In this document: positions 27,120 through 58,656 of the stretch, piece after piece
How the letters are laid out: every line of letters starts with the position of its first letter
Numbering within the stretch: the stretch's first letter is position 1
Assembly (NCBI GenBank): GCA_017557435.1
Contig: JAFYYR010000015.1
Location: 1 to 64,000, forward strand
Source: Pseudobutyrivibrio sp.
GTDB taxonomy: Bacteria > Bacillota > Clostridia > Lachnospirales > Lachnospiraceae
Length of the DNA: 64,000 nt
Direction of reading: 5' to 3'
Program-made: the position numbers and the translations under genes
The notes under the pieces: generated by a model
Databases searched by the model: none
What the model saw: the letters and a program-made list of their open reading frames with translations, nothing else
Told to the model about the DNA's origin: nothing

Positions 27120-27192
27120 ATTATAGAAATTAAGTATGAAAAAACAATGTACAAAATGTTTACATTCTGCCAAATTTACGCCGTTCTTGCCA
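27120..27192 (-). promoter_or_regulatory. Direct-repeat activator site plus -10 for the short SRRP gene
   Basis: Read on the minus strand, two half-sites (TGGCAAGAACG and TTGGCAGAATG) start 20 bp apart at + positions 27168-27173 and 27187-27192. Exactly 42 nt after the proximal one is TATAAT (27120-27125), with only a weak -35. The layout recurs at 34909-34982 and 58584-58656. Confidence 0.7.
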
Positions 27193-27206
27193 TAGGCCAC
27201 AAAGCA

Positions 27207-28703
27207 CTATTCTCGGTAAAAATCTTCCTTCAAAACTCTTTCATATTGGCCCTTAAACCAGGCGCCAATACCTGCAGTGTTATCGTTATGTCGTCCGTGT
27301 AAACCCTTGCCATAAACCTGCACACCAGCAGAATTTAGCTCTGACAAAAGGGTCTCATAGGCGGTGTCATCATAATCATCTTCGAACATGTAAGAGACAA
27401 TGAATTTGGTATGACTAAAGTCAGTGTTACGGATTTTGCTCCACACTCTTTCATTTAAAGATTCCACTCCTGCCATTGTCATATCCCCAGAGAACTTCTG
27501 GAGCAAATCAAGGGAAGTAGGGAATCCTCCCGGTCTCTTAAGTCTTTCATTCTGAGCAATATTTCCAAGGCTAGCTAGTGGCTTGCCCAATATAAGCGCA
27601 TGTGGCTTCAAATCACATCCGTAGTACATAGAACCGATGGTTCCCATGGAGATTCCTGATAAAATCAAATCACCTGGATAAAATCCTAGCTTACTTAAAT
27701 ATTTATCTATTATCTTAACCATGGTGCGCTCAAACTCTGGCGAGCCCATATAGAATCCACCACCCTCAAAACGCTGCTCCGCTAATAATAGGAAAGGACA
27801 TCCCATTTTTCTCATCATGTAATATCCCTCGAAGCCTTCCATGGTCTTGTATCCTGAAAAATAAACTGCAAGAGGTGGCTTCAAATCACCTGGATCAAAA
27901 TATGCAAATATTTCCTCTCGCTCGGAGGTCACATATCTTTCTCCTCCTACCATAAATTCTCCTATATCCCATCTGGAGATTCTATCGTGGAGTCCAATTA
28001 TTTCCAGATGGCCACTTCCCACTGCTCTAAGGGAACAGAAAATTGATCCAGCACCATTTCTTCCTTCTATACGAACTTCATTTTTTAAATCCTCTTCTGA
28101 GAATTCCCAGGAATCAAGTACTTCAGAAAGACTACCTGATACAAACTGCTTGATTGAAAGGGATATTTCTACCCCTTCATCCTTTTTATATTCCAACCAA
28201 AAATCAATAGCCTGGCCCTCCTCTAGAGGAATATTGCCTCGCCAAAAAGCTATCTGCTTCATCTCATAACCATAGTCACCATCAAGACTGACGCTATATT
28301 GGCCATTCCATTTAACCTGCCCCTTAAATCCATTAGCTATTCCTACAGAGCCTGGGTTAAATTTCTCGCCATAAGGCTTACTGAAATATTTTTTTGCTTC
28401 ATTATTAATGAAATCCTGAATGTTGTAGGTAGGCAAAAGCTTGCCCATGCGCTGTTCAAACAATAGCCCATTGGCCTCATCCAGTTCAAAGCTATCCACA
28501 GCAAAAAGACAGTAGGAATATGACATATCCTTAACTGCCTTTATCTCATCAGGTTCTAGATTTCTCTCTAGAACAACTATTTCATATATTTCCTTTTTAT
28601 ATTTCACTTTGCCATCGGCAAAAATATGCTTTATATATGAAGGAAAGCTATACTTATTTTTCCAATCTTCAGTTCCAATTTGTAGTATTCGTATTTTCTC
28701 CAT
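27207..28703 (-). CDS. asp2: Accessory Sec system protein Asp2 (acetyltransferase-like)
   Basis: This 498-aa protein matches Asp2, which binds SRRP cargo with Asp1 and Asp3 and in streptococci also O-acetylates GlcNAc on the adhesin. The N-terminal half is a beta-rich domain (RILQIGTEDW, ISLSIKQFVSG). The C-terminal half is an alpha/beta-hydrolase with PPLAVYFSGYKTMEGFEGYYM, nucleophile Ser in LSGISMGTIGS (near residue 352) and the catalytic His in KGLHGRHND (near 470). A triad Asp or Glu is likely in SYMFEDDYDDTA. Unlike the usual asp1-asp2-asp3 order it lies 8 kb from its partners, between the short SRRP and a GT-C-like gene. Confidence 0.9.
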   Translation of the reverse strand: MEKIRILQIGTEDWKNKYSFPSYIKHIFADGKVKYKKEIYEIVVLERNLEPDEIKAVKDMSYSYCLFAVDSFELDEANGLLFEQRMGKLLPTYNIQDFINNEAKKYFSKPYGEKFNPGSVGIANGFKGQVKWNGQYSVSLDGDYGYEMKQIAFWRGNIPLEEGQAIDFWLEYKKDEGVEISLSIKQFVSGSLSEVLDSWEFSEEDLKNEVRIEGRNGAGSIFCSLRAVGSGHLEIIGLHDRISRWDIGEFMVGGERYVTSEREEIFAYFDPGDLKPPLAVYFSGYKTMEGFEGYYMMRKMGCPFLLLAEQRFEGGGFYMGSPEFERTMVKIIDKYLSKLGFYPGDLILSGISMGTIGSMYYGCDLKPHALILGKPLASLGNIAQNERLKRPGGFPTSLDLLQKFSGDMTMAGVESLNERVWSKIRNTDFSHTKFIVSYMFEDDYDDTAYETLLSELNSAGVQVYGKGLHGRHNDNTAGIGAWFKGQYERVLKEDFYRE

Positions 28704-28714
28704 AATGCACTATT

Positions 28715-28743
28715 AGCCTAGCCAGCATAACGCCAGCTAGGCT
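28715..28743. repeat. Hairpin between the GT-C-like gene and asp2
   Basis: An 8-bp stem agcctagc/gctaggct (28715-28722 with 28736-28743) with extra partial pairing inside the loop lies 12 bp before the asp2 start. There is no T-tract on the minus strand, so it is more likely an attenuator or mRNA-processing structure than a full terminator. Confidence 0.5.
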
Positions 28744-28756
28744 CCTTTATTATTTT

Positions 28757-29779: not shown

Positions 29780-29795
29780 TCCCCTATCCTCCATA

Positions 29796-29832
29796 AAATA
29801 ATTTAGAGAGTGACAAAGTATATCACTCTCTA
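29796..29832 (-). terminator. Hairpin after the large SRRP gene
   Basis: A perfect 10-bp stem tagagagtga/tcactctcta (29804-29813 with 29823-29832) is followed on the minus strand by AATTATTTT. It is probably a moderate terminator that lets some transcription pass into the GT-C-like gene and asp2. Confidence 0.7.
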
Positions 29833-29875
29833 ATTATAATTCACTTTAAACTACATTCTGTAAAGAATTTGTGAA

Positions 29876-32800
29876 TTATTTCTCATTTTTGGCTTTTACA
29901 GCCTCAGTCTTAGCTTCCTTCTTATCTTTTGCTTTCTTTCCAGCTAATGCACTGATTATAATGAGAATCCAATACCACCAAACTCTTCCAGCAAGACCAC
30001 TCTTAGAAATTGCAAGAGGAGTCTCCTCGTCTTCGATTGTAGTAAGGTCTCCGTCTCCAACATTTGCTAAGGTCTGATCATCATCGAGAACTACAGCAAG
30101 TGGTACCTGCTCGTCTGCAATTCCCTGAATCTCATCACCTTCAAGCTCATTAAAGTTAGAAACTCGTGAAACTGTATTATTTGTAACCTCATTAAATGAA
30201 GTTGTATTTGTATTTTCTGTTGTGCTTCCTGCTACACCATTGCTCTCAGATGCAGAACCATTTGAACCAGCGCCACTGCCTGAGTTGTCATTTGAAGTGC
30301 TTGCTGCTGCAGAGTTGCTTGCACTAGCTGATGCCGACTCAGAAGCTGATGTGCTAGCTGATGTAGATGCGCTTTCACTTGCAGATGTGCTAGTTGATGC
30401 ACTCTCAGATGCTGATGTACTTGCACTTGTTGATGCTGACTCAGATGCTGATGTACTTGCGCTTGTTGATGCACTAGCAGATACTGATGCGCTCTCGCTC
30501 TCACTTACTGATGTTGACTCAGACTGGCTAAGTGAAGCTGATGTACTTGCTGACTCTGAAGCACTTAAGCTAGCTGATGCAGACTGTCTCTCAGAGTTGC
30601 TGATGCTCATACTCTCTGAAAGGCTTAAGCTTACAGAAAGTGACATGCTCTCAGATACAGAAGTACTTGCGCTCTCAGAAAGTGAAGCCGATGTGCTTGC
30701 TGACTCTGACAAGCTAGCTGATGTAGATGCACTCTCGCTTGCTGATATAGAAGCAGATGTGCTCTCGCTAAGTGATGCACTTGTTGATGCTGACTCACTT
30801 AATGAAGCTGAAGTACTTGCACTTGTTGAAGCACTTTCGCTTGCGCTTGTTGATTCAGATAAGCTTACGCTCATTGAAACACTCTGGCTCTCAAGCTCAC
30901 TTATTCTTGCAGAGGCACTTGCTGACTCTGACTCTCTTATGCTCTCAGAGATGCTTGCTGACTCTGATAAACTTGCTGATGTTGAAGCACTCTCGCTTGC
31001 TGATGTACTTGCACTTATTGATGCACTTGTGCTTGCTGATTCACTAGCTGATGCTGAGCTGCTTGCACTTGCTGATGCACTCTCAGATGCTGATGTGCTA
31101 CCGCTAAGTGATGCTGATGTTGATGCAGACTCACTTGCTGATGTACTTGCAGATGCTGAAGTACTTGTGCTTGTTGATGCACTCTCAGATGCTGATGTGC
31201 TTGCACTTGTTGATGCACTTGTGCTCGCTGATTCACTAGCTGATACTGAGCTGCTTGCACTTGCTGATGCACTCTCAGATGCTGATGTGCTACCGCTAAG
31301 TGATGCTGATGTTGATGCAGACTCACTTGCTGATGTACTTGCAGATGCTGAAGTACTTGCGCTTGTTGATGCACTCTCAGAAGCTGATATGCTTGCACTT
31401 GTTGAAGCGCTTGTACTTGCTGATTCTGAAGCAGATGCACTAGTTGAAGCTGAAGTGCTAGCTGAAGTAGAAGCACTTTCACTTGCGCTAGCTGATTCAG
31501 ATAAGCTAATGCTCATTGAAACACTCTGGCTCTCAAGTTCACTTATTCTTGCAGAGGCGCTTGCTGACTCTGACTCTCTTATGCTCTCAGAGATACTTGC
31601 TGACTCTGATAAACTTGCTGATATTGATGCACTCTCGCTTGCTGAAGTGCTGGCACTTGTTGAAGCGCTCTCAGATGCTGATGCACTTGCGCTTGTTGAT
31701 GCGCTCTCAGATGCTGATGTGCTTGCGCTTGTTGATGCGCTTGTACTTGCTGATTCACTAGCTGATGCTGAGCTGCTTGCACTTGCTGATGAGCTCTCAG
31801 AAGCTGATGTGCTTGCGCTTGTTGATGCACTTGTACTTGCTGATTCACTAGCTGATGCTGAGCTGCTTGCACTTGCTGATGAGCTCTCAGATGCTGATGT
31901 GCTTGCGCTTGTTGATGCACTTGTACTTGCTGAAGTAGACGCGCTTGTGCTTGCTGATTCTGAAGCAGATGCGCTAGTTGAAGCTGAAGTGCTAGCTGAT
32001 GTAGAAGCACTTTCACTTGCGCTAGCTGATTCAGATAAGCTAATGCTCATTGAAACACTCTGGCTCTCAAGTTCACTTATTCTTGCAGAGGCACTTGCTG
32101 ACTCTGACTCTCTTATGCTCTCAGAGACGCTTGCTGACTCTGATAAACTTGCTGATGTTGATGCACTCTCAGAAGCTGATGTACTTGCACTTGTTGATGC
32201 ACTTGTTGATGCACTTGTACTTGCTGACTCGCTTGCTGATGCTGAAGTACTTGCGCTTGTTGATGCACTTGTGCTTGCTGACTCGCTTGCTGATGCTGAA
32301 GTACTTGCGCTTGTTGATGCACTTGTGCTTGCTGACTCGCTTGCTGATGCTGAGTTGCTTGCACTTGTTGATGCACTCTCAGAAGCTGATGTGCTTGCGC
32401 TTGTTGATGCACTTGTACTTGCTGACTCACTAGCTGATGCTGATGTGCTTGCACTTGTTGATGCACTCTCAGATGCTGAAGTGCTGGCGCTTGTTGATGC
32501 GCTTGTACTTGCTGACTCACTAGCTGATGCTGATGTGCTTGCACTTGTTGAAGCACTCTCAGATGCTGAAGTGCTGGCGCTTGTTGATGCGCTTGTACTT
32601 GCTGACTCGCTTGCTGATGCTGAGTTGCTTGCACTTGCTGATGCTGACTCAGATGCTGATGCACTAGCACTAGCAGATGCACTCTGGCTTGCTGAAATGC
32701 TTTCGCTTACATACTGTGAAAGGCTTGCACTAAGTGACTCGCTTATACTCTGGCTCATTGATGCGCTAGCTGAATTAGAAGCGCTCACTGACTCAGATCT

Positions 32801-34849
32801 TGAAAGAGATGCGCTGTCAGAAGCTGCTGCGCTCTCTGATAATGACTGGCTGCGTGACTCAGAAGTCTGTGCTGATGCAGATGCACTCTCTGAAATAGAC
32901 TCACTTCTTGACTGAGATGCCTGGTTTGATGCAGATGCACTTTCAGACATTGACTCACTTCTAGAAGCTGATGAGCTCTCAGATGCCTTAGCACTCTCGC
33001 TGATTGACTCTGTCCATGAATCAGACTCAGAAGAAACCTCTGATACTGTCTCACTTACTGACTCAGAAACTGAAGTGAACTCACTTCTCTCATGAGCGTA
33101 ATCATCTTTTCCCTTATCAAAATCATTGATTGAGAAGTATGTATATCCCTTTACTCCAAAGTTACCGTCTTTTGCCTGACCAGCATTATTGAAGTATGTA
33201 TCTGTGCTTTCCTTAGCCTTTGCTATAAAGCTATCCTTAAAATTAACGCTGTAGCTTGTTGAACTAGCTGATGTATATAATGTAACAGTCTGAGTCCAAT
33301 TGCTAGCACCGTGGTCATCTATAGTGGCTGTAAATGTATATGTGCCATTTCCATTATTTACGATTCTAGAATTTCTATAGAAATAAGTCTTACCACCAAT
33401 CTTGATTCTCTGGTTATTGTAAGAAACTGTATTTCCATTGCCATCTGTAAGTGTTGAATATGTTCCAACACCCTGAGAATTAGAAACAACTACACCAAGT
33501 GTATTGTCTGCAGAGTTTCTGCAAACACCTGATAGCTGTCCATTCCATACATTATCTGCAGATGAATAGCTACCTAAATCATGATAGATAACCTGACCAT
33601 CTTCAGAATAATAAATATTTGACCATGGATTGTTATTCTGAGCTACAACATTTTTTGTAGTTCCGTTATATGAATTCCAAGAAAGAGTAAATGAATCATC
33701 TTCCTGGATTGTAACCTTTACATCGTCAGCTACACGCTGTCCGTTTACATAGTAACGACATACTGTTGACTCAGTACCATCAGCAGCTGTCTCTGTTTCA
33801 TAATTCCATGTGAGAATATTGCCATTAGCATCTTTGTACTGGTTTGTCTTCTTAACAACCATGATTCCAGATACTACATTTGCATTATCATGCTCTCTAC
33901 CCTGAGCTGGGCTATCATAGAATCCAGGAACTAATGCATTTCCTGCTTTATCTATTGTTACATAATCAAAGTAAGCGTACTTTGTCTCGCCTGCTGCATC
34001 AACATATGTAACCTTTACGCCGTTAGTATTGTAGTTGCTGAAATCCCAATCACTATAAAGGATTTCGCCAACATAACCTTCCTGATAGAAAGAATACTGA
34101 ATAAGAAGGTTAGCAAGCTTATCGCCGTAACCATAGTAATTATTTGATCTATCGTCATGGTTAAGATACTGACCATTTCTGATAGCTCTCTGCTGTACTG
34201 CCTCAAGCTCTGCTCTTGCTTCCTCGATTTCCTTAATAAGGTTCTCAAGATAATCATCCTCTCCAGCTTCTGAGAATGAAGTTGAAGCTGAATCATATGA
34301 AGACTCTGCATCAGACATAGCTTCTGAAAGGCTCTCGCTCTCAGAACTGATTCTCTCAGATACTGACTCAGATGTGCTAGCAATTGACTCATTTTCTGAT
34401 GTTAATGATTCGGCTGCTGAATTTGATGTCGAAGAAATCTGTGATTCCTCTGTAGAAAAAGAAGTGCTAGCTGCTTCAGATTGAGCTGCTACTTCTGAAG
34501 AAACATCATCCCCCATTGTTCCTTGCGCTTCTACGTCTGCCCCCTCGGCATTTACCGCTGTCGCCTGAGCAGTTAAGTCAACCTCTTCAAGCTCTGTTGT
34601 GGTCTCCTCCACCACAGTCTCTTGGGTTGTCTCTTCCTGAACGCTCTCGACAGTAGTCTCGACAACTTCCCTTGCCTGCTCTTGGGTAACCTCTACTGTG
34701 ATAACCCCTCCAGCATTGGCGGCTGCTTGCTCTTCTCCAAGCTCGGCAGCATATGCTAAATTAGCGTCACCGAATACAGATGCACCACCAACTGTTGCGC
34801 CTGTAATGGCAACTCCTTTTAATAAATTTTCAACTTTTTTCTTTGACAT
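29876..34849 (-). CDS. Large serine-rich repeat surface protein (accessory Sec cargo)
   Basis: This 1657-aa SRRP is the likely main substrate of SecA2/SecY2. Layout: glycine-rich signal peptide ([16 protein letters not shown], about 11-26, ending LAYA); acidic and Val/Thr-rich stretch (35-130); short Ser region (130-200); folded non-repeat domain (about 200-600) with [21 protein letters not shown] and aromatic-rich beta segments; a very long SASESAST-type region (about 610-1560), interrupted three times by a charged module with [12 protein letters not shown]. The tail ([17 protein letters not shown] then KKAKDKK) is a membrane segment without an LPXTG motif. A direct-repeat promoter lies upstream. 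Presumed function: glycosylated adhesin or biofilm protein. Confidence 0.88.
30300..33070 (-). repeat. Serine-rich repeat-coding DNA of the large SRRP
   Basis: About 2.8 kb of short degenerate tandem repeats encode Ser-Ala-Ser-Thr/Glu units. Three nearly identical modules of about 110 bp, starting near 30861, 31503 and 32036, encode a stretch with [19 protein letters not shown]. This DNA is prone to slippage and recombination, and assemblies may collapse it. Confidence 0.9.
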
Positions 34850-34908: not shown

Positions 34909-34982
34909 ATTGTATCACGTAAATTTTATTTTTAAAGTGCTTTAAGTAACTGTTCTTGCCAAATAATGGACGTTTTTGCCAA
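34909..34982 (-). promoter_or_regulatory. Direct-repeat activator site plus -10 for the large SRRP gene
   Basis: On the minus strand, half-sites TTGGCAAAAACG and TTGGCAAGAACA lie 20 bp apart (+ positions 34957-34962 and 34977-34982). Exactly 42 nt after the proximal half-site is TACAAT (34909-34914). The -35 is poor (TTTAAA at 16 bp), which fits activator-dependent transcription. Confidence 0.72.
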
Positions 34983-35041
34983 ATAATTATGTATCACACC
35001 ATTTTCACTGTTTTCATTATTTAATATAACGCTATTTTTGA

Positions 35042-35102: not shown

Positions 35103-36341
35103 TCAATAGGTTTCACAAAGGTAGCCATGCACTGTAAATCTCCTCCCCGATGTTGAACAAGTAGAAAGTGTGGTTACCTTATCTTTAGAAGATAGTTCCT
35201 TTCCTATTTCAATATCATCATACGAATGCTTAAGTAACTCACTGATATAATCACCAAACTCATCTGAATCTGAATAAGGCACGCCGTATACCCATGAGGC
35301 TGCATCCGTATCAAAATATGAGAATATCTCATATCTATACTTTTTATCCGCTGTTATAATCTGAAAATACTTATGATCCTGCAGATAGTTATCTTCTGTC
35401 TTATAGAACTTCAAGCTGCCAAACATTGAAAGATTTCTCATGTTGTGGCCATATATCACATTATGACTGTCTGCGAAATTAGGAAGGTTATATCCTTCCA
35501 GGAAAATACTACCTGCTGTAGCCCTGTCTCCGTCCATAGTCATACGTAAGTATTTATCATCATCACCTGAGTATAATATAGGATAGCTTATATCTGTTCC
35601 TTCAACGTATAGCCAACCTATTACATCAGGATTGATAGCCTGAAGCTTCGAAACATCGACATCCATCATATCATACCATTGCTGATTAGTCTCGGATATT
35701 TTTACATATTTTTCATTTAAATTGTTATATAAGCTATTGGACTTCTGATAACCCATATAAATAAATAGGAAACCAGCCAATGAACCAAACACAATTACAA
35801 GTCCTGTAAACAAGATAATCTTAGGATTAACCCCTGATTTCTTTTTCTTATCAGATTCATCTGCTGCCTTTTTATTTTTGGACTTATCGCCAGCGCTTGA
35901 AAGAATTGCACCAACTAGTACCATAACAATAGCCACTATCTTGCCTATAGGCTCTGATATAAATGAAGCTACATTTCCCATTAAAGGAAAATATTTCTCT
36001 GTCCTTCCTAATACATTGGTATAGGCCACAGGACTGAAATCAGCAGTTTCATTGGCGTCACCCTTTGTGGTAATAAGCATCTGCTCCTTATCAATAGACT
36101 CAACCCTATGGGTAACCACACTGGCTCCTGACTCAAATGAAATAATATCCCCTTCTGAAATCTCAGAGAAATCCACTGGCTTAACATAAACTATGGACCC
36201 AACCGGAATAGTCGGCTCCATTGAACCAGATATGACATTGTAGCTCTGGTATCCTATCAATTTAGGAAACACTATAGGCACAAATGCCACAATCACAATT
36301 ATTATTAATATGGTCCCTATTGTTCTTAATATTTTCTCCAT
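35103..36341 (-). CDS. SipW-type signal peptidase I fused to a class B sortase
   Basis: This 412-aa protein has two enzymes in one chain. Residues 1-150 are an ER/archaeal-type (SipW) signal peptidase: an N-terminal TM, nucleophile Ser40 in ISGSMEPTIPVGS, His78 in VVTHRV, the TKGDANETAD acidic box, and a second TM at 130-150. A lysine-rich linker (151-170) and a third TM (173-196) follow. Residues 235-412 are a class B sortase: VIGWLYVEGTDISYPIL, catalytic His299 in VIYGHN, Cys395 in TLSTCS and Arg400/401 in GRRFTVHG. An in-frame TTG ten codons upstream lies in the preceding terminator and is rejected. No Shine-Dalgarno is seen. It lies downstream of the TasA-like genes, its probable substrates. 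Confidence 0.9.
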   Translation of the reverse strand: MEKILRTIGTILIIIVIVAFVPIVFPKLIGYQSYNVISGSMEPTIPVGSIVYVKPVDFSEISEGDIISFESGASVVTHRVESIDKEQMLITTKGDANETADFSPVAYTNVLGRTEKYFPLMGNVASFISEPIGKIVAIVMVLVGAILSSAGDKSKNKKAADESDKKKKSGVNPKIILFTGLVIVFGSLAGFLFIYMGYQKSNSLYNNLNEKYVKISETNQQWYDMMDVDVSKLQAINPDVIGWLYVEGTDISYPILYSGDDDKYLRMTMDGDRATAGSIFLEGYNLPNFADSHNVIYGHNMRNLSMFGSLKFYKTEDNYLQDHKYFQIITADKKYRYEIFSYFDTDAASWVYGVPYSDSDEFGDYISELLKHSYDDIEIGKELSSKDKVTTLSTCSTSGRRFTVHGYLCETY

Positions 36342-36356
36342 AGGCCAATTATAGCA

Positions 36357-36385
36357 CAAAAAAGCGCCCAACCGAAGTTGAGCGC
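36357..36385 (-). terminator. Terminator before the SipW-sortase fusion gene
   Basis: A 9-bp stem (36364-36372 with 36377-36385, one G-T pair) with a cgaa loop is followed on the minus strand by TTTTTTTG. It lies 14 bp after the stop of the MucBP-like gene and only about 16 bp before the ATG of the fusion gene. Confidence 0.88.
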
Positions 36386-39713: not shown

Positions 39714-40784
39714 TTAATTGCCTCCCTCTAAATTGTTTCCTGTGTAGTTATAATTTACAGTAGCAAGTCCATCAACTGTAGTCTCAACTTTTTCAAATGT
39801 ATTTACTACGCTAATTCCACCTTCTTTAAGATGCTCATCATAATCATTTGTAAATTCTACAGTACCTGTCTCTCCAGCCTTTAAATCCTCAATTGTCTGA
39901 GTCTTATTCTCCTCTACATCGATAGTGTAGCTGGCACCTGAATAAACCTCTGTAACAGTGATTGTTGTTCCTGCTGGAACCTTGTCAATAGTAATCGACT
40001 TTGTAAAAGCTCCATCTACATAATTGTCATTTTTATCAAATGTAAGTGTGTAGACGTTGCTAAAAACTGTCTTTTCATCTCTTGTTGCCTCAACATCATA
40101 TATGAAGCTTGCTGTTCCAAGAGAATCATTGAAAGTCTTTAAATTCTTAGTAATAGTAACCTTGCCATATTTAGGCTTAGCTTCTGATTTAAGTAAAAAG
40201 CTTGCATCATACTTCCACTCATCACTGCCAGAACCAAGTGTTATATAGTCACTTGTTGGGGCATATAAAATGTATGATGTAAATGTATAGTTAAAATCAT
40301 TGTCAGAACAATCCTGTGGAACAAAAAGGTAAATACCTGCGCCATTTGCTATAGTAGCTGTAGCATTTGTAAGGCCATCCTTTGTCTTAGTAGCTTTAAT
40401 TGTATCAGTAGGCTTAACTGCATCTGATTGTGCAACTGGCTTTACCTTTTCTACTATCTTAGTTTTAACTTCCTCTTCAGAAGTCTTATTTGTTAAAACT
40501 GAAAGGTCTGCGCCACTGTTTGCAAAGTCAGCAGTCAATCCCTTGATATTGCCGCTTTCATCAAGCTCTGCGATTTTATATAAATCAATGACTATCTCGC
40601 CCTCAAAGCTTGTGGCAAACTGAGAATTATCTCCTGCACCAATGGCAGCAGATATATGAACATCTGCAGTCAAATCAATATGACCAGCAGCATTTACTCG
40701 ATAGGCTCCAAACGAAGACGCAAGTGTAACTACTGTCGCAGCGATCGCTATAAGTTTTTTTCTACTAAACCCTAAATTTTTCAC
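39714..40784 (-). CDS. Minor pilin-like protein with Cna-B/DUF5979-type domain
   Basis: This 356-aa exported protein starts at a GTG (GGGAG upstream) that overlaps the sortase stop. After the signal peptide (KLIAIAATVVTLASSFGAYRVNA), residues 25-200 form an FctA-like pilin region (FEGEIVIDLYKIAELD, NGAGIYLFVPQD). Residues 205-325 form a DUF5979/Cna-B-like repeat (YGKVTITKNLKTF, TITVTEVYSGASYTID with the E-box Glu in TVTEVY). There is no LPXTG or C-terminal TM, so it may be incorporated by its neighbours or use another anchor. It lies between the sortases and the TasA-like genes. Confidence 0.75.
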   Translation of the reverse strand: MKNLGFSRKKLIAIAATVVTLASSFGAYRVNAAGHIDLTADVHISAAIGAGDNSQFATSFEGEIVIDLYKIAELDESGNIKGLTADFANSGADLSVLTNKTSEEEVKTKIVEKVKPVAQSDAVKPTDTIKATKTKDGLTNATATIANGAGIYLFVPQDCSDNDFNYTFTSYILYAPTSDYITLGSGSDEWKYDASFLLKSEAKPKYGKVTITKNLKTFNDSLGTASFIYDVEATRDEKTVFSNVYTLTFDKNDNYVDGAFTKSITIDKVPAGTTITVTEVYSGASYTIDVEENKTQTIEDLKAGETGTVEFTNDYDEHLKEGGISVVNTFEKVETTVDGLATVNYNYTGNNLEGGN

Positions 40785-41683
40785 TGAGCTCTCCCTTCAG
40801 CTTTCTTATTACTCTTTTTGAATAACTTTCGAATTATAAGAATAAGAATAATTGCAACGATTAAACCAGCTATGCCGATAATCACGTAATAATTCTTAAC
40901 AGTTTCTACAACAGCCTCGGCACCCTTTGGAGGTTCATCCTCTCCTAAGTATTCAACTCTTGTGCCTCTAACTAAAAGTCTGTGGGTGTTAACACCATAT
41001 GGTGTACATGTAAACAAAGTAACGTAATCTTTGCCAGGCTCCACTTTCATTGCTTCAGCAAGAGTATTAATATCCTCTGCTGGTATTGCCTCCGAAATCT
41101 CGTCTACCTGATAGGCAAGTGTTTCATCTAAAACATGGATGTAAAACTTGTCTCCAACCTGAAGCTGGTCAATATTTGTAAATAGCTCTGCACTAGGCAA
41201 GCCTCTATGACCAACTATTACTGAATGTGTACTCTCGCCTCCAATTGGAAGTGCTGTACCATTCATATGTCCAACTGCCGTCTGGATGTACTCATCAAAA
41301 GTACCATGCATAATGGACAACTTAACTTTTATTTTTGGAATGGACAAATAGCCCATAACTCCATCGCCATTAATATTTAAAACTGAAAAGTACTCTGAAT
41401 TCAAAAACTCTTCAGTTGGTTTAACTGCATTTCCATCAGCAGCTGCTCCAAATGCATCTGTGCCAATGGCGTTTTCAGTAATATTTGCATTAAATGCCCT
41501 AGCAGCATCCCAGTAAGCGGAATAATCTTCCTCAGTCATCTGGCTGAGAGAATCCTCATACTCACGGATAACAGTGCTCTGCACATAATTGTTCCATTCG
41601 TTTGAAATGGTTGGATAAGCTAAAAATCCCACGCCAACGATGAATAATAAAATTACAAAAAACCTAACTAATTTCTGTTTCAC
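40781..41683 (-). CDS. srtC2: Class C (pilus) sortase, second copy
   Basis: This 300-aa transpeptidase has an N-terminal TM, catalytic His in VIVGHRGLPSAELFTN, Cys in TLFTCTPYGVNTHRLLVRGTR with the conserved Arg, and a C-terminal TM (YYVIIGIAGLIVAIILILIIRKLF). The class C signature TCTPYGVNTHRL is complete. It starts at GTG in a GTGA overlap with the first sortase. Class C sortases polymerise pilins; two copies in a row suggest separate tip and shaft, or backbone and ancillary, specificities. Confidence 0.94.
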   Translation of the reverse strand: MKQKLVRFFVILLFIVGVGFLAYPTISNEWNNYVQSTVIREYEDSLSQMTEEDYSAYWDAARAFNANITENAIGTDAFGAAADGNAVKPTEEFLNSEYFSVLNINGDGVMGYLSIPKIKVKLSIMHGTFDEYIQTAVGHMNGTALPIGGESTHSVIVGHRGLPSAELFTNIDQLQVGDKFYIHVLDETLAYQVDEISEAIPAEDINTLAEAMKVEPGKDYVTLFTCTPYGVNTHRLLVRGTRVEYLGEDEPPKGAEAVVETVKNYYVIIGIAGLIVAIILILIIRKLFKKSNKKAEGRAQ

Positions 41684-42555
41684 GCCTGTTCCTTTTTTGT
41701 GCGCTTTCTGTCATATAAGTAAAGTAAAAGAATAAATGCACCTACAATTGCAAGTCCTACAATTACCCATAAAAGATAATTAGTGTGAAGACTTACTGCT
41801 CCAAAAGTAGGAGTCTTAGCATCTGCAAGAAGTGTTGGTGTATACTCTACTCTGTGACCTGTAACCATAAGTCTCTCAGTATTTACACCGTATGGTGTAC
41901 ATGTAATAAGAGTACATAGGTCCTTGCCTGGCTGAACTGCAAGTAGGCTAGTATCATCAGGCTCAACCACTTCAATATTATCTACTTCATAAGCATAGTA
42001 CTCGCCCATGATGATAATGAAGAAATCCTCGCCAACCTCCACCTTATCAAGATCTGTAAAAAGTGTGGCACTTGGCAGACCTCTGTGAGCACTAAGTACT
42101 GAATGTGTATCAGGACCTCCTATTGGAAGTGAACTTCCCTCTAGATGTCCTACACCGATTTGAAGCACATCATCATTTGTTGTATGGAAAATAGGAAGCT
42201 TTACATTGATACTAGGTATCTGAATGTATCCCATTATTCCGTCATCATTTGCATTTAAAATGCTCATATAATTGCTATCTACGCCATTGGCCTCCGCCTC
42301 TGCAAAGGAATCTGGCAAGATACTTGGAAGTAATTCCTCGTTGTATACAGTTGCTCTATCAAGCTCAGCTTGTACATCAAGGGTTCCTTCCTGGATTGCT
42401 GCCTCGACTGTTGCCTCATAATCTTTAACAAGTGTAGCTTGTACGTGATTATTCCATGCGTTGGCAACTAGCGGGTACACCAGCAAGGACAAACCAGCAA
42501 GCATGAGAGCGCCGATGGCTATAGTCTTATAGTATTTTAGAAAAAATGCCTTCAT
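41680..42555 (-). CDS. srtC1: Class C (pilus) sortase, first copy
   Basis: This pilus sortase of about 291 aa has N- and C-terminal TMs, LPDSFAEA in the lid region, SVLSAHRGLPSATLFTD with the catalytic His, and TLITCTPYGVNTERLMVTGHR with Cys and Arg. The ATG at 42555 (MKAFFLKYYKTIAIG) is chosen because GGAGAGG lies upstream; the open frame extends ten codons further. It follows the LPFTGG pilin after a strong hairpin, the usual position of a dedicated pilin polymerase. Confidence 0.94.
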   Translation of the reverse strand: MKAFFLKYYKTIAIGALMLAGLSLLVYPLVANAWNNHVQATLVKDYEATVEAAIQEGTLDVQAELDRATVYNEELLPSILPDSFAEAEANGVDSNYMSILNANDDGIMGYIQIPSINVKLPIFHTTNDDVLQIGVGHLEGSSLPIGGPDTHSVLSAHRGLPSATLFTDLDKVEVGEDFFIIIMGEYYAYEVDNIEVVEPDDTSLLAVQPGKDLCTLITCTPYGVNTERLMVTGHRVEYTPTLLADAKTPTFGAVSLHTNYLLWVIVGLAIVGAFILLLYLYDRKRTKKEQA

Positions 42556-42583
42556 TATTGCTGTCCTCTCCTTGGTGCTGTAC

Positions 42584-42605
42584 ACCCTGGCATAGACGCC
42601 AGGGT
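42584..42605 (-). repeat. Intercistronic hairpin between major pilin and sortase
   Basis: A perfect 8-bp stem accctggc/gccagggt (42584-42591 with 42598-42605) with a 6-nt loop and no T-tract lies between the pilin stop and the sortase start. Such hairpins often stabilise or partly terminate the pilin transcript, giving more pilin than sortase. Confidence 0.7.
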
Positions 42606-44115: not shown

Positions 44116-47100
44116 TTATTTGTTGTTTTTATTGTTTTTCTTTGATTTATATAACAACAGCGCCGCCCCCATCATTAACAGAACTCCGCCGATTGTATAT
44201 ACATAGACTCCCCTTCCACCTGTCTCAGGTAGAGTATAAGCAACAACATCGAAGAAACTATATTCATATGTTGCGATGTTGCCTGCTTTGCTTACGGTAG
44301 CATGTACTACCTTGTTTGAAGACTTAATCCTTACAGATACGCCCTCATATTTTTCATATGTGACAATCCACTCTTCTTTGCTAAGTGCAAAGCTCTTTGG
44401 TGCCTTTGTCTCTCTGAGGATGTATGTGCCATCCTGAACTGTCTGAGGCTTTGAATGCTCAGAATCTGGATTTTCAACTTCCCAGAGACTATTAAACCAA
44501 AGGATTTCTCCCTGACTATTTGTTACACCGTAGAATACAGTGAATGTATCATCAGCATTTCTTAACTCAAACTGTGCTCCAGCAAGAGTTTCGTATGTAT
44601 TAGCATTTCTCTTTACAATCTTAAATTCATAAGACTGCTTAAGCTCATTTACAACCTTTACTTGGCTGTCCTTTCCACTCTCTACATTAACTGATGTAGT
44701 TCTTTCTATAAGAGAAAGTGCTTGCTCAGCTCCATCTACAACCTGATACATTGTAGTTTCGTATCTTTCTAAGTCAGCCTTCTCGTATTCACCATTTGCA
44801 TTCTTGTCGTAAACATAGCACTCTGTAACTCTATATTCGCCTGGAAGCAAATCGGTGATTGTAAATGACTGGTCAGCAAAAATATTAAATGCATCATTGC
44901 TGTAGCCTACTCCAAGCAGTTTATTTCCGTTGTAGTAAGAAATAATATTGGTCTGAATCACTCCAATTGTAATTGGACTAACAACTTCTGTTGTACCATC
45001 CTCAAGAACTCGCTCTACCTTGATTCCATACATGGTATCTGTAGAAGCATTTGTTGAATTACCAGTGAGTTTCTTTTCAATTGTAAGAGAACCCTTTACA
45101 TTCTTGTTTGTAAATGTATGTGTCTCATTACCAAGCTTTTCAACAGAAACCTGAGCAATTGTCTTTGGTGAAAGAATAAAATCAAGTCCTGTTCTGTCAT
45201 AACCGTAATTGCTTGAATAGAAGTTACCCTTTGAATTACTAATTGTGACTGGGCACTCAACCTTTGCTGTTGTGAAAAGATTTGCACCGCTTAAATCAAC
45301 ATAACCATTTCTAGGATTGTAAGTTCCTGTATAGTACATAGCCACGTTTCTATATGGCTCGTGTTCGCCGCCTACCTTTTCGCTTGATGGCTTGTAGTAT
45401 CTAGAATCCTGTGGATAGTATGAATTGCTGTCGATAATAACAAGCTTTGTATCGCTTGAGCCCTCATACTTAACCTTGAATGCTAAAACTGAATTCTGGC
45501 CTAGCTTCTGAGAATCAGCTCTCCACTCGTAGCCGTTCTGCTTAGTCATCTGAACACTCTTTGAATCAGCAACCCATCTGTAGCTGTCATCATAGTATCC
45601 GATGAGTGTTATTCGACCGCTATTTCCATCTAAATCGTAGATGTTAGTGATTCTTCTACCAGAATCATCGCCATCTGAAACAGCATCTACTTCAATATCT
45701 AAGTGGCTGTACTGCTCTCCACCCTCAGTAGCAGGTGAAGGAATTAAAATTTCTTCTGTAATGTTAGTATTTTCTGTATAAGTAACATCGTGATCTGTTA
45801 ACTCATATCCAATAATTTCTCGCTCTTCAACATTCCAGCTGATAATCTGTGTACAATCCTCATCAGCGAAAATCTTCAGATTCTCAATTGTGCGAGTCCA
45901 ATTATCATCCTTTGTTACTACTACAGGAGTAATTGCAGCTTCTTTGCTATCACAGACTGTTCCATCAAGTTTGATGTACTTTACACCAGAATCATCTGCA
46001 AATGTACCGTATACATCGAATGTGATGTTGTCTGGTCTGCTAGTTGAATTATTGTCATCCCATTCCTTTTTGATTGTAAGGTTCTTCTTGTATGACTCAT
46101 TCTTGAAGTTCTTGATTGTAGTAATTTCTTTTTTATTCTGGTCATCCTTCTTGTAAATCTTGAATGAACCCTGTGTCTTTGATTTAACAGCTCCATCTAT
46201 TATAGAAGAAGTACCATTTACAACCTCTACAACGTAGATAGTCTTGCTTACTCGATAACCCTTTGGAGCTACCATCTCTTTCATATAGTAGGTACCAGCC
46301 TCTACATCAGAGAATGTAACCTTACCATTTGCATCAGATGTAGCTGTGTAAAGAGCTGTGCCCTTGCACTCTGTATCAGCCTCACCGTAGAGACCAAACT
46401 CTGCGCCTGCTAAAGCACGTCCAGCTCCGTCAGCCTTGTTGAAATATACATCTGTAGGAACTGCTATATTCTGATTTTTAAAGTTAAATGTAATCTTGCA
46501 GTTTGATAAGGAAGCACCACGCTCAAGGTAGAAGAATGTAAGTGTATGTCCACCCTTAGCCAAAGCCTTGCGTCCTTCTTCAACTGTCTTGTAACCTAAA
46601 ACATTTGTATAAAGGTTTGTTGTGCTCCGTGAGCCTCTGTTAACTACAGATCTAGCTGCAGAATCAACAATACAATCACCTGTTGCAAAATTGATTCGTC
46701 CTGATACAACGCCGTGGATACCACCAATATCAAGAGCTAACTTGTTATCAATGAATACCCATACATCATCATCACCAGAGAATTCAAAGACTGTATCTTT
46801 TCCATTGTCATCCTTGCCATTTTCAGCGATGTTGAAGTTAACCTGTAAATTCATACCGAAATGTGGCTCATCCTTAGTACCAGAGAATGGCCAGAACTGA
46901 CCTTCACTATCATTTCTCTGAGTACGAGTCATTCGGTTATTTGGCTCATCAAATGAGTAATCGTTTACCTTAGAATCAAATGTGTAATATCCATTTTCAA
47001 AATAGAAAGGAATAGCTACATTTCTGTATGCTAAAATATCATCTTTTCTATCCCAATATGTATTAGCTCCAGTTCTAGATGCGAAAAGCCAAGAATCTGG

Positions 47101-48840
47101 ATCAAAAATAGGTGCTACAGCATAGTTAAATGTAGGCATGTTGTTAGATAATGTATTGCCTACGATACCCTGGTATGCTGTTGGATTATCTGTAGATGAA
47201 TTAGTATTACATCTGTTCCATGGCTGGTAGTATGCTGAACCATTTGTGATAATATCTCCACCATCATGGAAAATTAATGCATTGTTAGCATTTCCTGTTC
47301 TAAGAGATGCATTGTTAATTGAATCCTTGCTATAGTTGAAAAGATTAGCTGAGAAATACTTGTCATCAGCAATCTCTCTATTATCTTGGTATACAAAGAA
47401 AACATTTACAGTTGTTCTCTTGGCTGCTTCACTAGAACTATTTGCACCCTCTGCAATATACTGCCAGTTATTCTCACCCTGTCCATAAATAGTAGCTGCC
47501 CAGTACAATCGACCTGGGTCATATTTATAACTTATATTTGTAACCTGACGCTTATCTGCAAGATATGCACCTCTATATGTATATCCCTCTACAGAAAGTT
47601 GTCTGGCAAGTGTTGTAAAGTAATTGTAGTTAGTTGCCGATACACGACATGACAAATTTTCATTTGCTGGAATGTTGTCGTAAGTTTCAATCTGACCAGT
47701 TACACTCTCAATTGGGTTACCATACTGGTCAACTGCATAAAGATTAAGTGTCTGAGTATTTTTCGCGTGATTATTATCTTTCCATATGATGGTTCCTACT
47801 TTTTTATCTGTGCTAACAGTTGTCCACTTAATGGCAAAAACTGAGAAGCTCTCTGTCTCAAATGAAACATCTACTGTAGAAATATCATCACCAGTCTCCA
47901 CTGATGTGGTAGACTCCTCTGTCAAATCAACAGCCTCTGTAGAATCACTATTTTCCTCGAAGTGAACGATACCTACATCTGTACCTTCAAGCTCCTCATC
48001 TGTCTCAGGTGCCTTTAAGCTTACGATGTTAACTGAAACGCTTCCATCCTTTGGCTCTACTTTGCCATCCTCATTCATAAGAGAAATATCATAAGCCAAA
48101 AATGCTTTAAGCTCCTTGCCAGATTCTTCAGCATCCTCAGAAAGTGAAGTAGCTACCTCTTCCAACTGGTCCTCATCAGTTACTTTTTCGGCCTTAACTT
48201 CTGTGGCACCATTAAGTACGCTCTTCTTTGCTGTGACAGTGACAATGACCTCATCGTTTTCGAACTCAAGAGTTATTTCCTTGTCCTCATCTTCGATTTC
48301 CTCTTTTTTGTATCCACAATGAATACAGATTCCATCTTCATCGAACTCACACTCTTCAGCTTCTTCGATGATTTCGCCGCATTCCTTGCAGCGCTTGATA
48401 TGAGTTCCATCACCATTTGACTCGTACTCGAATTTCTCGTGCTTGCATTTCTTTTCATCCTCAAGCTCCTCATCTTCAAGCTCATCGTCTTCAGCCTCCT
48501 CATCAGTAGCCTCAGCCTCATCGGCTACTGACTCGTCCTCTGACCCATTATTAATTTGTTCCTCCTGGGAATCATTTGATGTAGCATCTCCATCATGATT
48601 ATCAGAAGTTGCATCACCAGAAACGGATGCGTCCTCCTCGGAGCTGCTAGTGGCATCATCTTCTGCTCTCCCTGCTTCAGAAGATGAGACCTCTTCAGAA
48701 TTATCATTAACTGAGTACTCAGCAGCAACGACTTCGTTATCACCCTCCGCATAGGCTACTATCGGTGACGATAAAGCGAGCGCTGTTGCAAGTCCCAAAG
48801 ACAGTATTCTATTAAGCATAGTCAACTTTTTCATAGACAT
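44116..48840 (-). CDS. Giant pilus tip adhesin with fibro-slime and Cna-B domains (LPETGG)
   Basis: This 1574-aa exported protein begins with a signal peptide (to about residue 31) and an acidic low-complexity stretch. A four-cysteine zinc-ribbon-like motif (CKHE, CKECG, CIHCGY, residues 132-176) follows. A fibro-slime/PA14-like domain lies near 650-800 (FSGDDDVWVFIDNKLALDIGGIHG, LTFFYLERGASLSNCKI). SpaA/Cna-B domains follow from about 800 (ADGAGRALAGAEFGLYG; LTIKKEWDDNN; FKIVKRNANTYETLAGAQF). It ends in LPETGG near 1537, a TM and KKNNKNNK. GGGAG lies 5 nt before the ATG. It is the first gene of the pilus operon and probably the tip subunit. Confidence 0.92.
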   Translation of the reverse strand: MSMKKLTMLNRILSLGLATALALSSPIVAYAEGDNEVVAAEYSVNDNSEEVSSSEAGRAEDDATSSSEEDASVSGDATSDNHDGDATSNDSQEEQINNGSEDESVADEAEATDEEAEDDELEDEELEDEKKCKHEKFEYESNGDGTHIKRCKECGEIIEEAEECEFDEDGICIHCGYKKEEIEDEDKEITLEFENDEVIVTVTAKKSVLNGATEVKAEKVTDEDQLEEVATSLSEDAEESGKELKAFLAYDISLMNEDGKVEPKDGSVSVNIVSLKAPETDEELEGTDVGIVHFEENSDSTEAVDLTEESTTSVETGDDISTVDVSFETESFSVFAIKWTTVSTDKKVGTIIWKDNNHAKNTQTLNLYAVDQYGNPIESVTGQIETYDNIPANENLSCRVSATNYNYFTTLARQLSVEGYTYRGAYLADKRQVTNISYKYDPGRLYWAATIYGQGENNWQYIAEGANSSSEAAKRTTVNVFFVYQDNREIADDKYFSANLFNYSKDSINNASLRTGNANNALIFHDGGDIITNGSAYYQPWNRCNTNSSTDNPTAYQGIVGNTLSNNMPTFNYAVAPIFDPDSWLFASRTGANTYWDRKDDILAYRNVAIPFYFENGYYTFDSKVNDYSFDEPNNRMTRTQRNDSEGQFWPFSGTKDEPHFGMNLQVNFNIAENGKDDNGKDTVFEFSGDDDVWVFIDNKLALDIGGIHGVVSGRINFATGDCIVDSAARSVVNRGSRSTTNLYTNVLGYKTVEEGRKALAKGGHTLTFFYLERGASLSNCKITFNFKNQNIAVPTDVYFNKADGAGRALAGAEFGLYGEADTECKGTALYTATSDANGKVTFSDVEAGTYYMKEMVAPKGYRVSKTIYVVEVVNGTSSIIDGAVKSKTQGSFKIYKKDDQNKKEITTIKNFKNESYKKNLTIKKEWDDNNSTSRPDNITFDVYGTFADDSGVKYIKLDGTVCDSKEAAITPVVVTKDDNWTRTIENLKIFADEDCTQIISWNVEEREIIGYELTDHDVTYTENTNITEEILIPSPATEGGEQYSHLDIEVDAVSDGDDSGRRITNIYDLDGNSGRITLIGYYDDSYRWVADSKSVQMTKQNGYEWRADSQKLGQNSVLAFKVKYEGSSDTKLVIIDSNSYYPQDSRYYKPSSEKVGGEHEPYRNVAMYYTGTYNPRNGYVDLSGANLFTTAKVECPVTISNSKGNFYSSNYGYDRTGLDFILSPKTIAQVSVEKLGNETHTFTNKNVKGSLTIEKKLTGNSTNASTDTMYGIKVERVLEDGTTEVVSPITIGVIQTNIISYYNGNKLLGVGYSNDAFNIFADQSFTITDLLPGEYRVTECYVYDKNANGEYEKADLERYETTMYQVVDGAEQALSLIERTTSVNVESGKDSQVKVVNELKQSYEFKIVKRNANTYETLAGAQFELRNADDTFTVFYGVTNSQGEILWFNSLWEVENPDSEHSKPQTVQDGTYILRETKAPKSFALSKEEWIVTYEKYEGVSVRIKSSNKVVHATVSKAGNIATYEYSFFDVVAYTLPETGGRGVYVYTIGGVLLMMGAALLLYKSKKNNKNNK

Positions 48841-48919: not shown

Positions 48920-48983
48920 AGTATATTACGGCACATTTTTTTTATTTAAAAGATGTCTGGCAATAAGTGTCATTTTTTGGCAA
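48920..48983 (-). promoter_or_regulatory. Inverted direct-repeat site and -10 upstream of the pilus operon
   Basis: On the plus strand, CTGGCAATAAG and TTGGCAAAAAA half-sites lie 20 bp apart (48958-48963 and 48978-48983). This is the same spacing as at the SRRP genes but the opposite orientation to the gene. A TATACT -10 candidate is at 48920-48925, 32 nt from the nearer half-site. The repeat partly overlaps the T-tract of the upstream terminator, so chance similarity is possible. Confidence 0.45.
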
Positions 48984-49012
48984 AAAATAACTCCAGGACT
49001 ATTTCCTGGAGT
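48979..49012 (-). terminator. Terminator upstream of the pilus operon
   Basis: A perfect 9-bp stem actccagga/tcctggagt (48990-48998 with 49004-49012) is followed on the minus strand by TATTTTTTGCC. It ends transcription coming from the GT2 gene. Confidence 0.85.
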
Positions 49013-51521: not shown

Positions 51522-51530
51522 TAATGCTCC

Positions 51531-52430: not shown

Positions 52431-52435
52431 TATTA

Positions 52436-53876: not shown

Positions 53877-53888
53877 AATCTGCTCCTA

Positions 53889-54266: not shown

Positions 54267-54267
54267 T

Positions 54268-56373: not shown

Positions 56374-56445
56374 TATTTATTCTCCACTAATCACATCACA
56401 ACTCAACTATTCATTATATATAAAAAAGACTTTCTTGTGTAGACA

Positions 56446-56477
56446 AAAATAAGAGCTAGACCAATGGCCTAGCTCTT
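56446..56477 (-). terminator. Terminator of the 56489-58483 surface protein gene
   Basis: A 9-bp perfect stem aagagctag/ctagctctt (56451-56459 with 56469-56477) is followed on the minus strand by ATTTTTGTC. It lies 12 bp past the stop. Confidence 0.9.
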
Positions 56478-56488
56478 AGAAATATCAT

Positions 56489-58483
56489 TTACTTCTCTGA
56501 CTGGTTTTCCTGTTTTTTGATTTTGTAAGTAGTAGTTACTGCTGTAATAGCTGCGATGATTATCAGAATCCAATACCACCAGAATCTACCTACTAAATCT
56601 TCGATTATAGCCTTAGCTGTCTCTGTATCTTCAATTGTGATTGAAGAAGGAGTTTCTTCATCCAATGGCTCCTCTATAAGAACTGCTCCCATATCAGGTG
56701 CCAATGTGTCATCAGCCTCAATTACTCTAGCATTATTATCATTAGCTGCTGTAAGCTGTGGTTCTGGCAAAAGACCTGTTAAACCAAGAGGTATAAAAGT
56801 ATCTGGTATTGTAATTACGCCAACTGGATAATCTGTTGATCCACCGCCACCACCTGCCTGTGTAGGAGCTGGAGTTGACTCAGGAGTCTGTGACTCTGTT
56901 GGAGTTTCTGGCTCTACTGGTGTCTCTGGATTTACTGGAGTTTCTGGCTCTACTGGTGTCTCTGGCTCTACTGGTGTCTCTGGATTAACCGGATCTACTG
57001 GGTCTACTGGATCTACTGGGTCTACTGGATCTACTGGGTCTACTGGGTCTACTGGGTCTACCGGATCTACTGGATCTACTGGGTCTACTGGATCTACTGG
57101 GTCTACTGGATCTACTGGGTCTACTGGATCTACTGGATCTACTGGATCTACTGGAGTTACTACTGGGTAATTGTAAGAATTAACTTCTGTTATACCCTGA
57201 GTTCCATTTGTAGTAACCACATAAGTTCCACCCTTTTTGTAACGTATAATTGTTGTCTCATCTTTTACGTAACCAATTACTCTAATATTTGAGAAAGCTT
57301 CCTTTGTACTGGTTGTAAAATATGGGCTAAGTACATAACCACCTGATGGATTAGGAACTATCATGTACCATCCATCTCCCTGCCATAATCCATAATGGCT
57401 TCCGCTAGGTGTATCAATCATTGCTGCATATCTCGTATTAAGATCAGCACAATATGGAGGCAACATATCATTTATTGTATATGTTCCTGTTGGTGAGCTT
57501 ACCCACAAATCAGCCTGTGACTGAGGCTTGTATCCATAATAACTGTTTAAATGGCTATCATGTTCAAAAACATTTACATAGTCAGTTAAGCCAGCTGCTG
57601 TGTCAATACTATGACTTATATAATCTCTGCTTTGTTCTTTTGGCTGGAATGTATATGTGTAATCTACACCTAATTCCATATCCTTTACATAGTTGATAAA
57701 ACTACTTGTATCTTTAAAAGTCTTTTCCTGTCCTGGCTCAGTGCTTATAGCTATCTCTTTGATAGAAACAGTTCCTGATTCATCAACTCCACCAAAGATG
57801 TAATATGTATTATTGCCTTCATCATCTGTCACTACATAAACAGTATTTCCTTCTATATCTTCTGTAGTAACTGTTGTGTCTTCAAACTGTGCCATCAAAA
57901 GATTTGAAACAGAACCAGTGATATCTGCACCTTCCTCAGCATTTCTAATCTCATCTGCATAAGTATCTACAGGATTTATCTCATCCTCTGATGGCGCTCC
58001 ATCACCATCTTCAGGTTGACCATCTGGGTTTTCTCCATCTTCGTCATCACCTGGCTGACCATCAGGATTTTCTCCGTCTTCGTCATCGCCTGACTGACCA
58101 TCAGGATTTTCTCCGTCTTCGTCATCGCCTGGCTGGCCGTCTGGATTTTCTCCGTCTTCGTCATCGCCTGGCTGACCGTCTGGATTTTCTCCGTCTTCGT
58201 CATCGCCTGGCTGATCGTCTGGATTTTCTCCGTCTTCGTCATCGCCTGGCTGACCGTCTGGATTTTCTCCGTCTTCGTCATCGCCTGGCTGACCGTCTGG
58301 ATTTTCTCCGTCTTCGTCATCACCTGGCTGACCGTCTGGATTTTCTCCGTCTTCGCCGCCACCTTCGCCAAGCGCTTCTTCTGCAAAGGCTACATCAAAT
58401 TCGCTTCCAACACATGCACCACCAATAGCTGAACTTACTAAAACCGCTGCTATTAATATGCCATATAATCTTTTTCTAACCAT
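56489..58483 (-). CDS. Repeat-rich surface protein with GRxWWYW membrane tail
   Basis: This protein of about 664 aa is exported ([22 protein letters not shown]). Residues about 40-155 are nine tandem acidic units ([13 protein letters not shown]). A folded domain of about 330 residues follows ([20 protein letters not shown] to [15 protein letters not shown]), then about 16 VDP units and ETPVEP/NPETP repeats (490-560). A C-terminal region holds [16 protein letters not shown], then [18 protein letters not shown] and a basic tail like that of the large SRRP. No LPXTG. The ATG at 58483 is preferred because GGAG lies 8 nt upstream; a GTG overlaps that site. A direct-repeat promoter lies upstream. 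Role unknown, probably cell-surface adhesion. Confidence 0.82.
56995..57155 (-). repeat. VDP tandem repeat region
   Basis: About 16 copies of a 9-bp unit (tctactggR on the plus strand) encode a Val-Asp-Pro rod in the surface protein. Flanking 30-bp units (56905-56990) encode ETPVEP/NPETP. Confidence 0.92.
58008..58356 (-). repeat. 39-bp tandem repeats encoding the acidic spacer
   Basis: Nine near-identical 39-bp units encode 13-residue acidic segments ([13 protein letters not shown]) directly after the signal peptide. Some units differ by one residue (DDQP, GQS), so the copies are slightly diverged. Copy number may vary between strains. Confidence 0.92.
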
Positions 58484-58583
58484 ACCTGTCACTCCTTTCG
58501 TGGAATCAAAAAACCGCCCATGGTTCCGTCTAGGAAAAGAACAATTTAGTTACTTGATATAACATTCCTTGTTCTTTATAGAG

Positions 58584-58656
58584 AGTCTATCGTCAAAATG
58601 TGAACCTTTATTGATATGTAAAGTCACATCCTGCCAAAAGTCGTAACATGTTGCCA
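58584..58656 (-). promoter_or_regulatory. Direct-repeat activator site plus -10 for the repeat-rich surface protein
   Basis: On the minus strand, half-sites GTGGCAACATG and TTGGCAGGATG lie 20 bp apart (+ positions 58632-58637 and 58651-58656). TAGACT (58584-58589) starts exactly 42 nt after the proximal half-site, as at the two SRRP genes. Confidence 0.68.

Follow-up and report, generated by a model that had tools for sequence, protein, structure and literature searches.

Bacterial LytTR-type regulators recognize half-sites of the consensus [TA][AC][CA]GTTN[AG][TG]. The repeats bound by AgrA have two-turn spacing, the operators of VirR and ComE are direct repeats at a fixed promoter distance, and the regulators of LytTR regulatory systems (LRS) carry LytTR with no receiver domain. 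The proximal AgrA repeat is centered at about −60, at promoters with a suboptimal core (PMC4227749, in excerpt). LRS (HdrRM and BrsRM) have direct repeats just upstream of the promoter of their own operon, with gaps of 11 to 13 bp and sequences that may diverge from the LytTR consensus, and an LRS operon is named in P. ruminis (PMC6193735, in excerpt). LytTR regulators lie beside secreted GH3 enzymes in Butyrivibrio (PMC2914790, in excerpt). Here, we describe a direct-repeat site pair found before surface-protein genes in a 64,000-nt stretch of a Pseudobutyrivibrio sp. genome (contig JAFYYR010000015.1, positions 1 to 64,000, forward strand; hereafter the window, to which coordinates refer) and its relation to P0005, a LytTR response regulator (RR) encoded elsewhere in that genome. 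Judged from sequence, the site pairs are probably operators of a LytTR two-component system that activates a surface regulon.

As with VirR and ComE, the operators are direct repeats that keep a set distance to the promoter; the repeat sequence and the targets differ. With AgrA (Staphylococcus aureus, agr P2/P3), P0005 shares its receiver-plus-LytTR architecture, and a GHKL kinase lies beside the RR homologue in other genera. Two direct repeats are again present, with the proximal one near the AgrA position of about −60 (operator center 46.5 to 49.5 bp from the −10 here; PMC4227749, in excerpt). Unlike AgrA, the half-site here is TYTGGCARGAACGTCA, the targets are adhesins and pilins, the kinase in Pseudobutyrivibrio is a HisKA/receiver/Hpt hybrid, and sites occur in both orientations. 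A LytTR regulator and direct repeats are also shared with LRS, in which the regulator has a membrane inhibitor protein as its partner; P0005 instead carries a receiver domain and has a kinase gene beside it, which sets it outside the LRS. A partial literature search, by titles and the starts of abstracts, gave no paper apparently describing the motif or regulon, and apparently nothing on how these rumen and gut bacteria control their serine-rich adhesins and sortase pili. The system offers a named regulator, a precise operator, a fixed promoter geometry, and a candidate target list from 29 genomes.

Site pairs in the window and in the genome

Three site pairs lie on the minus strand where a sequence-only reading of the window had placed them, at 27168 to 27192, 34957 to 34981, and 58632 to 58656, with half-site starts 20 bp apart in each; the end of the second pair, previously put at 34982, was corrected to 34981. 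The −10 hexamers proposed for them (TATAAT, TACAAT, and TAGACT) each begin exactly 42 nt past the proximal TGGCA. A fourth pair, absent from that reading, was found on the plus strand (48958 to 48982) and points away from the pilin-type gene downstream of it (44116 to 48840, minus strand); TAATAT begins 29 nt on, and TATACT (32 nt) and TACTAT (34 nt) are also near. TGGCA-N15-TGGCA thus matches the window four times, against 0.16 expected (mean of 100 dinucleotide shuffles, 0 of which reach four). The sites and candidate −10 hexamers are as follows.

27165..27194, minus strand: direct-repeat site pair, forward, before the gene of the serine-rich repeat protein (SRRP) type at 27042 (motif search, window and genome)
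27120..27125, minus strand: −10 TATAAT, 42 nt past the proximal TGGCA (register count)
34954..34983, minus strand: direct-repeat site pair, forward, before gene 34849 (motif search, window and genome)
34909..34914, minus strand: −10 TACAAT, 42 nt past the proximal TGGCA (register count)
48956..48985, plus strand: fourth site pair, reversed relative to gene 48840 (motif search, window and genome)
48923..48928, minus strand: candidate −10 TAATAT, 29 nt past TGCCA (register count)
58629..58658, minus strand: direct-repeat site pair, forward, before gene 58483, with 3 mismatches to the extended motif (motif search)
58584..58589, minus strand: −10 TAGACT, 42 nt past the proximal TGGCA (register count)

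Since 11 of its 18 matches in the 2.8-Mb genome fall inside open reading frames (ORFs), the bare TGGCA-N15-TGGCA motif is too loose for use alone. The extended motif TTTGGCARGA-N10-TTTGGCARGA (≤3 mismatches) gave nine genome matches, seven of them clean and convincing, and none for the reversed control. Four clean sites are those of the window, two flank one surface gene on contig C5 (L020 12227 to 14671), and one lies before a 120-aa gene of unknown kind on contig C25. The genome-wide search suggested earlier thus found the motif at surface genes, next to a single LytTR regulator, and before the 120-aa gene. Over 28 spacings (TGGCA-N{5,32}-TTTGGCA), the genome held 32 matches (reversed control, 6), of which 8 show a 20-bp period (Poisson P = 4e-6); once the four copies in the window, from which the search arose, are removed, 4 of 28 do (P = 0.013). 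TANNNT stands at the register of its own orientation in all seven clean sites (forward, 42, 42, 42, and 43 nt; reversed, 28, 28, and 29 nt), values that count only as a set because TANNNT is loose and other TANNNT hexamers lie nearby in most.

An Rfam scan of four loci found three tRNAs and nothing else. A sigma-54 −24/−12 reading of TGGCA was rejected because the spacing does not fit (by eye), as was a palindromic reading (TTTGNCAAA) that would explain both orientations, since RGAACGTCA, conserved on one side, gives the half-site a polarity.

The LytTR regulator and conservation of the site

No LytTR gene was found in the window, in line with the sequence-only reading, and ten are present in the rest of the genome. 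One of these, P0005 (237 aa; contig C5, 82829 to 83539), lies directly upstream of the C5 surface gene with a copy of the motif beside it. P0005 has a receiver domain (PF00072 Response_reg, 75.4 bits, residues 3 to 116) and a LytTR domain (PF04397, 35.9 bits with a cutoff of 22.6, residues 140 to 229) that scores the weakest of the ten; in a PDB sequence search, the best 60 of 168 matches cover the receiver part. Divergent from it is the hybrid kinase gene P0007 (HisKA, HATPase, receiver, and Hpt domains). In the ~3.2-kb loci examined for the other nine LytTR genes, no site was present (0/9). Between the RR and the surface gene in L066 (1380 to 1500) and L020 (14730 to 14870), the site pair falls in the loop of a long hairpin with a T-run, where terminator and promoter overlap.

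Conservation was followed in 29 genus genomes (named relatives labelled Pseudobutyrivibrio, except one Butyrivibrio fibrisolvens 16/4). A close P0005 orthologue (61 to 100% identity) is present in 27 and was not found in G012 (81% complete) or G014 (83% complete). All 27 orthologues have a site 6 to 125 bp from the RR gene, 25 with TGGCA in both halves and 2 with one TGACA half. The order RR, site, surface gene holds in 13/13 named genus loci, and a second site follows within ~0.5 kb past the surface gene in nine of these.

The extended motif matches every genus genome, with 196 matches in total (2 to 11 each) versus 24 (0 to 4 each) for the reversed pattern. Sites were taken mainly with GGCA in both halves, and apparent coding chance matches were left out by eye, with a second search supplying those of G022 to G028; the resulting set holds 130 unique sites (≤3 mismatches, GGCA in both halves), and promoters were compared for 109 (35 forward and 74 reversed). 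Each site was assigned the longest ORF at 60 to 240 nt, and a few assignments are probably wrong (e.g., L082, L086, and L178). An ORF of ≥90 aa at that distance follows 109 of the 130 sites, and 75 of the 109 encode a signal-peptide-like N terminus by a crude rule (P = 4e-9 against a baseline of 48/150 ORFs drawn partly from the window); a further 19 sites precede SRRP-type genes, counted by N terminus, that this rule missed. Exceptions to surface-gene targets include L131, L132, and a conserved ~100-aa soluble protein (MQAKEKLEGFIENISDAEKEALYRALLKYK...) with a reversed site upstream (L141, L169, L175, and L210).

Beyond the genus, RR homologues at E ≤ 1e-40 occur in 7 of 297 genomes of the family, and the loci of two (G084 and G310) had the motif near the RR. 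A cross-genus pattern built from G084, G310, G299, and the genus sites matched 13 times, in 9 of 397 genomes, and its reversed control not at all; 10 of the matches, in 8 genomes, were judged convincing. By mismatch, 7 were exact and 6 had one mismatch, versus 0 and 2 for a 19-bp version over the same 397 genomes. An RR homologue (34 to 39% identity) adjoins 6 of the 10 convincing sites (L303, L306, L307, L309, L312, and L313), and in five of these loci (L303, L306, L309, L312, and L313) the site stands before the RR or the RR/kinase operon itself. Of the other convincing loci, L310 has a kinase, L305 and L311 (as also L307) have large secreted proteins, and L304 has no clear assignment. The RR is adjacent in 4 of the 5 genomes that had no role in building the pattern, and the kinases beside other-genus RR homologues were GHKL in 6/6 tested. 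Co-occurrence of site and RR by genome has a Fisher P of 8e-5, partly circular through G084 and G310. Outside the genus, the full repeat comes closer to TYTGGCARGAACGTCA; AACGTCAAT in these repeats fits the LytTR consensus at 8/9 by eye, and the window repeats fit less well. A family-wide pattern allowing 2 mismatches was set aside, as most of its matches, in 150/299 genomes, are probably fortuitous; the G230 and G299 sites came to light through it.

Orientation, promoter registers, and competing explanations

The sequence-only reading had the motif in one orientation with a single 42-nt register; the reverse orientation is present as well, with a fixed register of its own. Most forward sites stand before genes of the SRRP family, with TANNNT at 42 nt in 20/24 (mean over offsets, 1.6), so that the motif and register are kept at the SRRP-type promoters of close relatives; the 42-nt rule is weak at the forward sites of other genes. 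Among reversed sites, TANNNT stands at 28 nt in 19 of 22 for the RR-locus gene (22 rather than 27, as two sites with a TGACA half and three duplicates of other rows were removed) and at 29 nt in 18 of 26 for the pilin-like set. The binomial P is <1e-15 after 45 offsets in each of the three sets, whose related promoters are not independent. With a 20-bp tile per repeat, the operator center lies, by arithmetic, ~49.5 bp from the −10 in the forward sites and 46.5 to 47.5 bp in the reversed ones, so a polar operator would have been flipped with its position kept. Tentatively, then, a LytTR regulator may act from the same place both ways, forward for accessory-Sec adhesins and reversed for pilins and RR-linked surface genes, with a ~32-aa microprotein in the regulon perhaps feeding back. 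This two-orientation geometry would bear on how LytTR activators reach RNA polymerase.

P0005, with the divergently encoded hybrid histidine kinase, would be the regulator of the site pairs. Its phosphorylated dimer would bind the two direct repeats (approximately TYTGGCARGAACGTCA in full, 20-bp period), whose center lies ~47 to 50 bp before the −10, and bring RNA polymerase to promoters in which the −35 is poor. The targets, switched on as one surface regulon, would be serine-rich adhesins, sortase-anchored pilins, the RR-adjacent surface gene, and the microprotein. The motif, its registers, its gene neighborhood, and its co-occurrence with the regulator are features of the sequences themselves, from which we infer binding, activation, and phosphorylation by the divergent hybrid kinase. 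The LytTR-type regulon of surface proteins proposed earlier is supported by the motif at surface genes and beside a LytTR regulator, which would probably be an activator; the two SRRPs and third surface protein named as its members do carry the motif, and the set is larger than those three genes.

Several observations weigh against this assignment to P0005. In the genus, 21 of the 130 sites have no ORF of ≥90 aa at 60 to 240 nt (8 of the 21 carry the microprotein), 12 of the 130 overlap an ORF (naive test), and locus L072 has no site. The 42-nt register is found in only 2/11 forward sites of non-SRRP genes, the reversed sites of the four-member soluble-protein family have their peaks at 25 and 39 nt rather than 28 nt, and the occurrence of both orientations is unusual for a polar dimer. 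The half-sites are no plain match to the LytTR consensus. Neither G000 nor G020 gives a match to the strict cross-genus pattern. Outside the genus, the −10 lies at no regular register, the RR homologue loci L308, L315, L316, and L317 have no site, and at L314 the site is 1.4 kb away. Of three other-genus RR homologues scanned, two have no Pfam LytTR match and one scores 20.7 bits (cutoff, 22.6), so that the DNA-binding half is divergent there, which slightly lowers confidence in P0005-type control and slightly raises it for a different regulator. The homologues at L303, L312, and L313 align with P0005 over nearly its whole length, yet with Pfam LytTR absent or just below the cutoff.

Repression by the same regulator, or opposite effects of the two orientations, is unlikely, although it would account for two orientations having two registers and for a −35-like TTG often being kept in reversed promoters (by eye). 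The sites lie upstream of the core promoter, not over it, near the activator position of AgrA at about −60 (PMC4227749, in excerpt). Equally, we doubt that the sites are operators of a different regulator, with the LytTR gene adjacent only because the neighboring surface gene is one target of many. In the genus, a surface gene also follows the site beside the RR, so being adjacent is not enough to mark out the RR, and some RR homologues have no site; against this, the other-genus sites of L303, L306, L309, L312, and L313 stand before the RR or RR/kinase operon, and in the genome of the window the site is beside P0005 and beside none of the nine other LytTR genes.

That the repeats form an RNA element, as a terminator loop or attenuator, is very improbable. 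At the RR locus, the reversed half-sites do fall in the loop of a strong hairpin with a T-run after it (2 loci folded; z = −4.5 and −8.1), but the forward sites are upstream of the −10 and hence outside the transcript, and the motif and register recur at promoters where no such hairpin was seen (by eye). Chance similarity, for which the bare-motif matches inside ORFs and the P of 0.013 without the window copies could speak, is contradicted by the genus-wide counts and opposed by the shuffles, genus-wide conservation, registers, and regulator link, leaving it next to no likelihood.

The microprotein, surrounding genes, and other repeats

The second site past the C5 surface gene precedes a 33-aa ORF (L020 11878 to 11979, minus strand) with a ribosome-binding-site-like stretch and a terminator. 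A ~32-aa ORF of this kind (MKVLILKVKMFRTMVENHRTRRQLKKLE-like) was found at 12 loci (L020, L075, L076, L080, L081, L083, L086, L087, L146, L185, L188, and L197), with a terminator-like stretch after most copies. A reversed site lies 95 to 261 nt upstream of nine copies, and none was found within 500 nt at L076, L146, or L188. In the closest pair, 6/7 changed codons are synonymous; in distant pairs, amino acid changes outnumber silent ones. Two copies scanned against NCBIfam gave no match. The conserved ORF is likely a real microprotein and as such a new candidate player in the circuit.

The surface, export, and sortase genes of the window are as follows.

24679..27042, minus strand: serine-rich surface protein, 787 aa, SRRP-type N terminus (NCBIfam Sdr/Clf adhesin matches far below cutoff)
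29876..34849, minus strand: serine-rich repeat protein, 1657 aa (NCBIfam serine-rich matches below cutoff)
44116..48840, minus strand: SpaA-domain, LPXTG-anchored pilin-type protein, 1574 aa (Pfam/sequence)
56489..58483, minus strand: repeat-rich surface-type protein, 664 aa (unmatched in Pfam and NCBIfam at the thresholds applied)
14439..16787, minus strand: ATPase of the SecA type, probably the SecA2 of an accessory Sec system (context of the SRRPs)
17221..18876, minus strand: Asp1, accessory Sec
27207..28703, minus strand: Asp2, accessory Sec, directly upstream of site 27165 to 27194
35103..36371, minus strand: sortase-domain protein
40781..41683 and 41680..42585: two further sortases

The SecA-type ATPase, Asp1, Asp2, and two serine-rich proteins occur together, as in an accessory Sec/SRRP locus, and with the three sortases they mark the window as an adhesin-export and pilus region. 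Positions 14439 to 44099 group the accessory Sec genes (SecA-type, Asp1, and Asp2), both serine-rich proteins, all three sortases, and one LPXTG protein.

Elsewhere in the genus, sites lie inside ORFs of ~700 aa at L168, L178, L179, L194, and L198; those of L179, L194, and L198, from three genomes, are good-looking. In reversed-type promoters, 11-bp direct repeats (e.g., GTTCACATAACCGTCACA or GGACACAGAATGAACACA) were seen by eye past the −10 (L076 11239, L079 11706, L080 10881, L087 at three sites, L118, L126, and L170); we take them to resemble the boxes of OmpR-type regulators, and they may belong to a second regulator.

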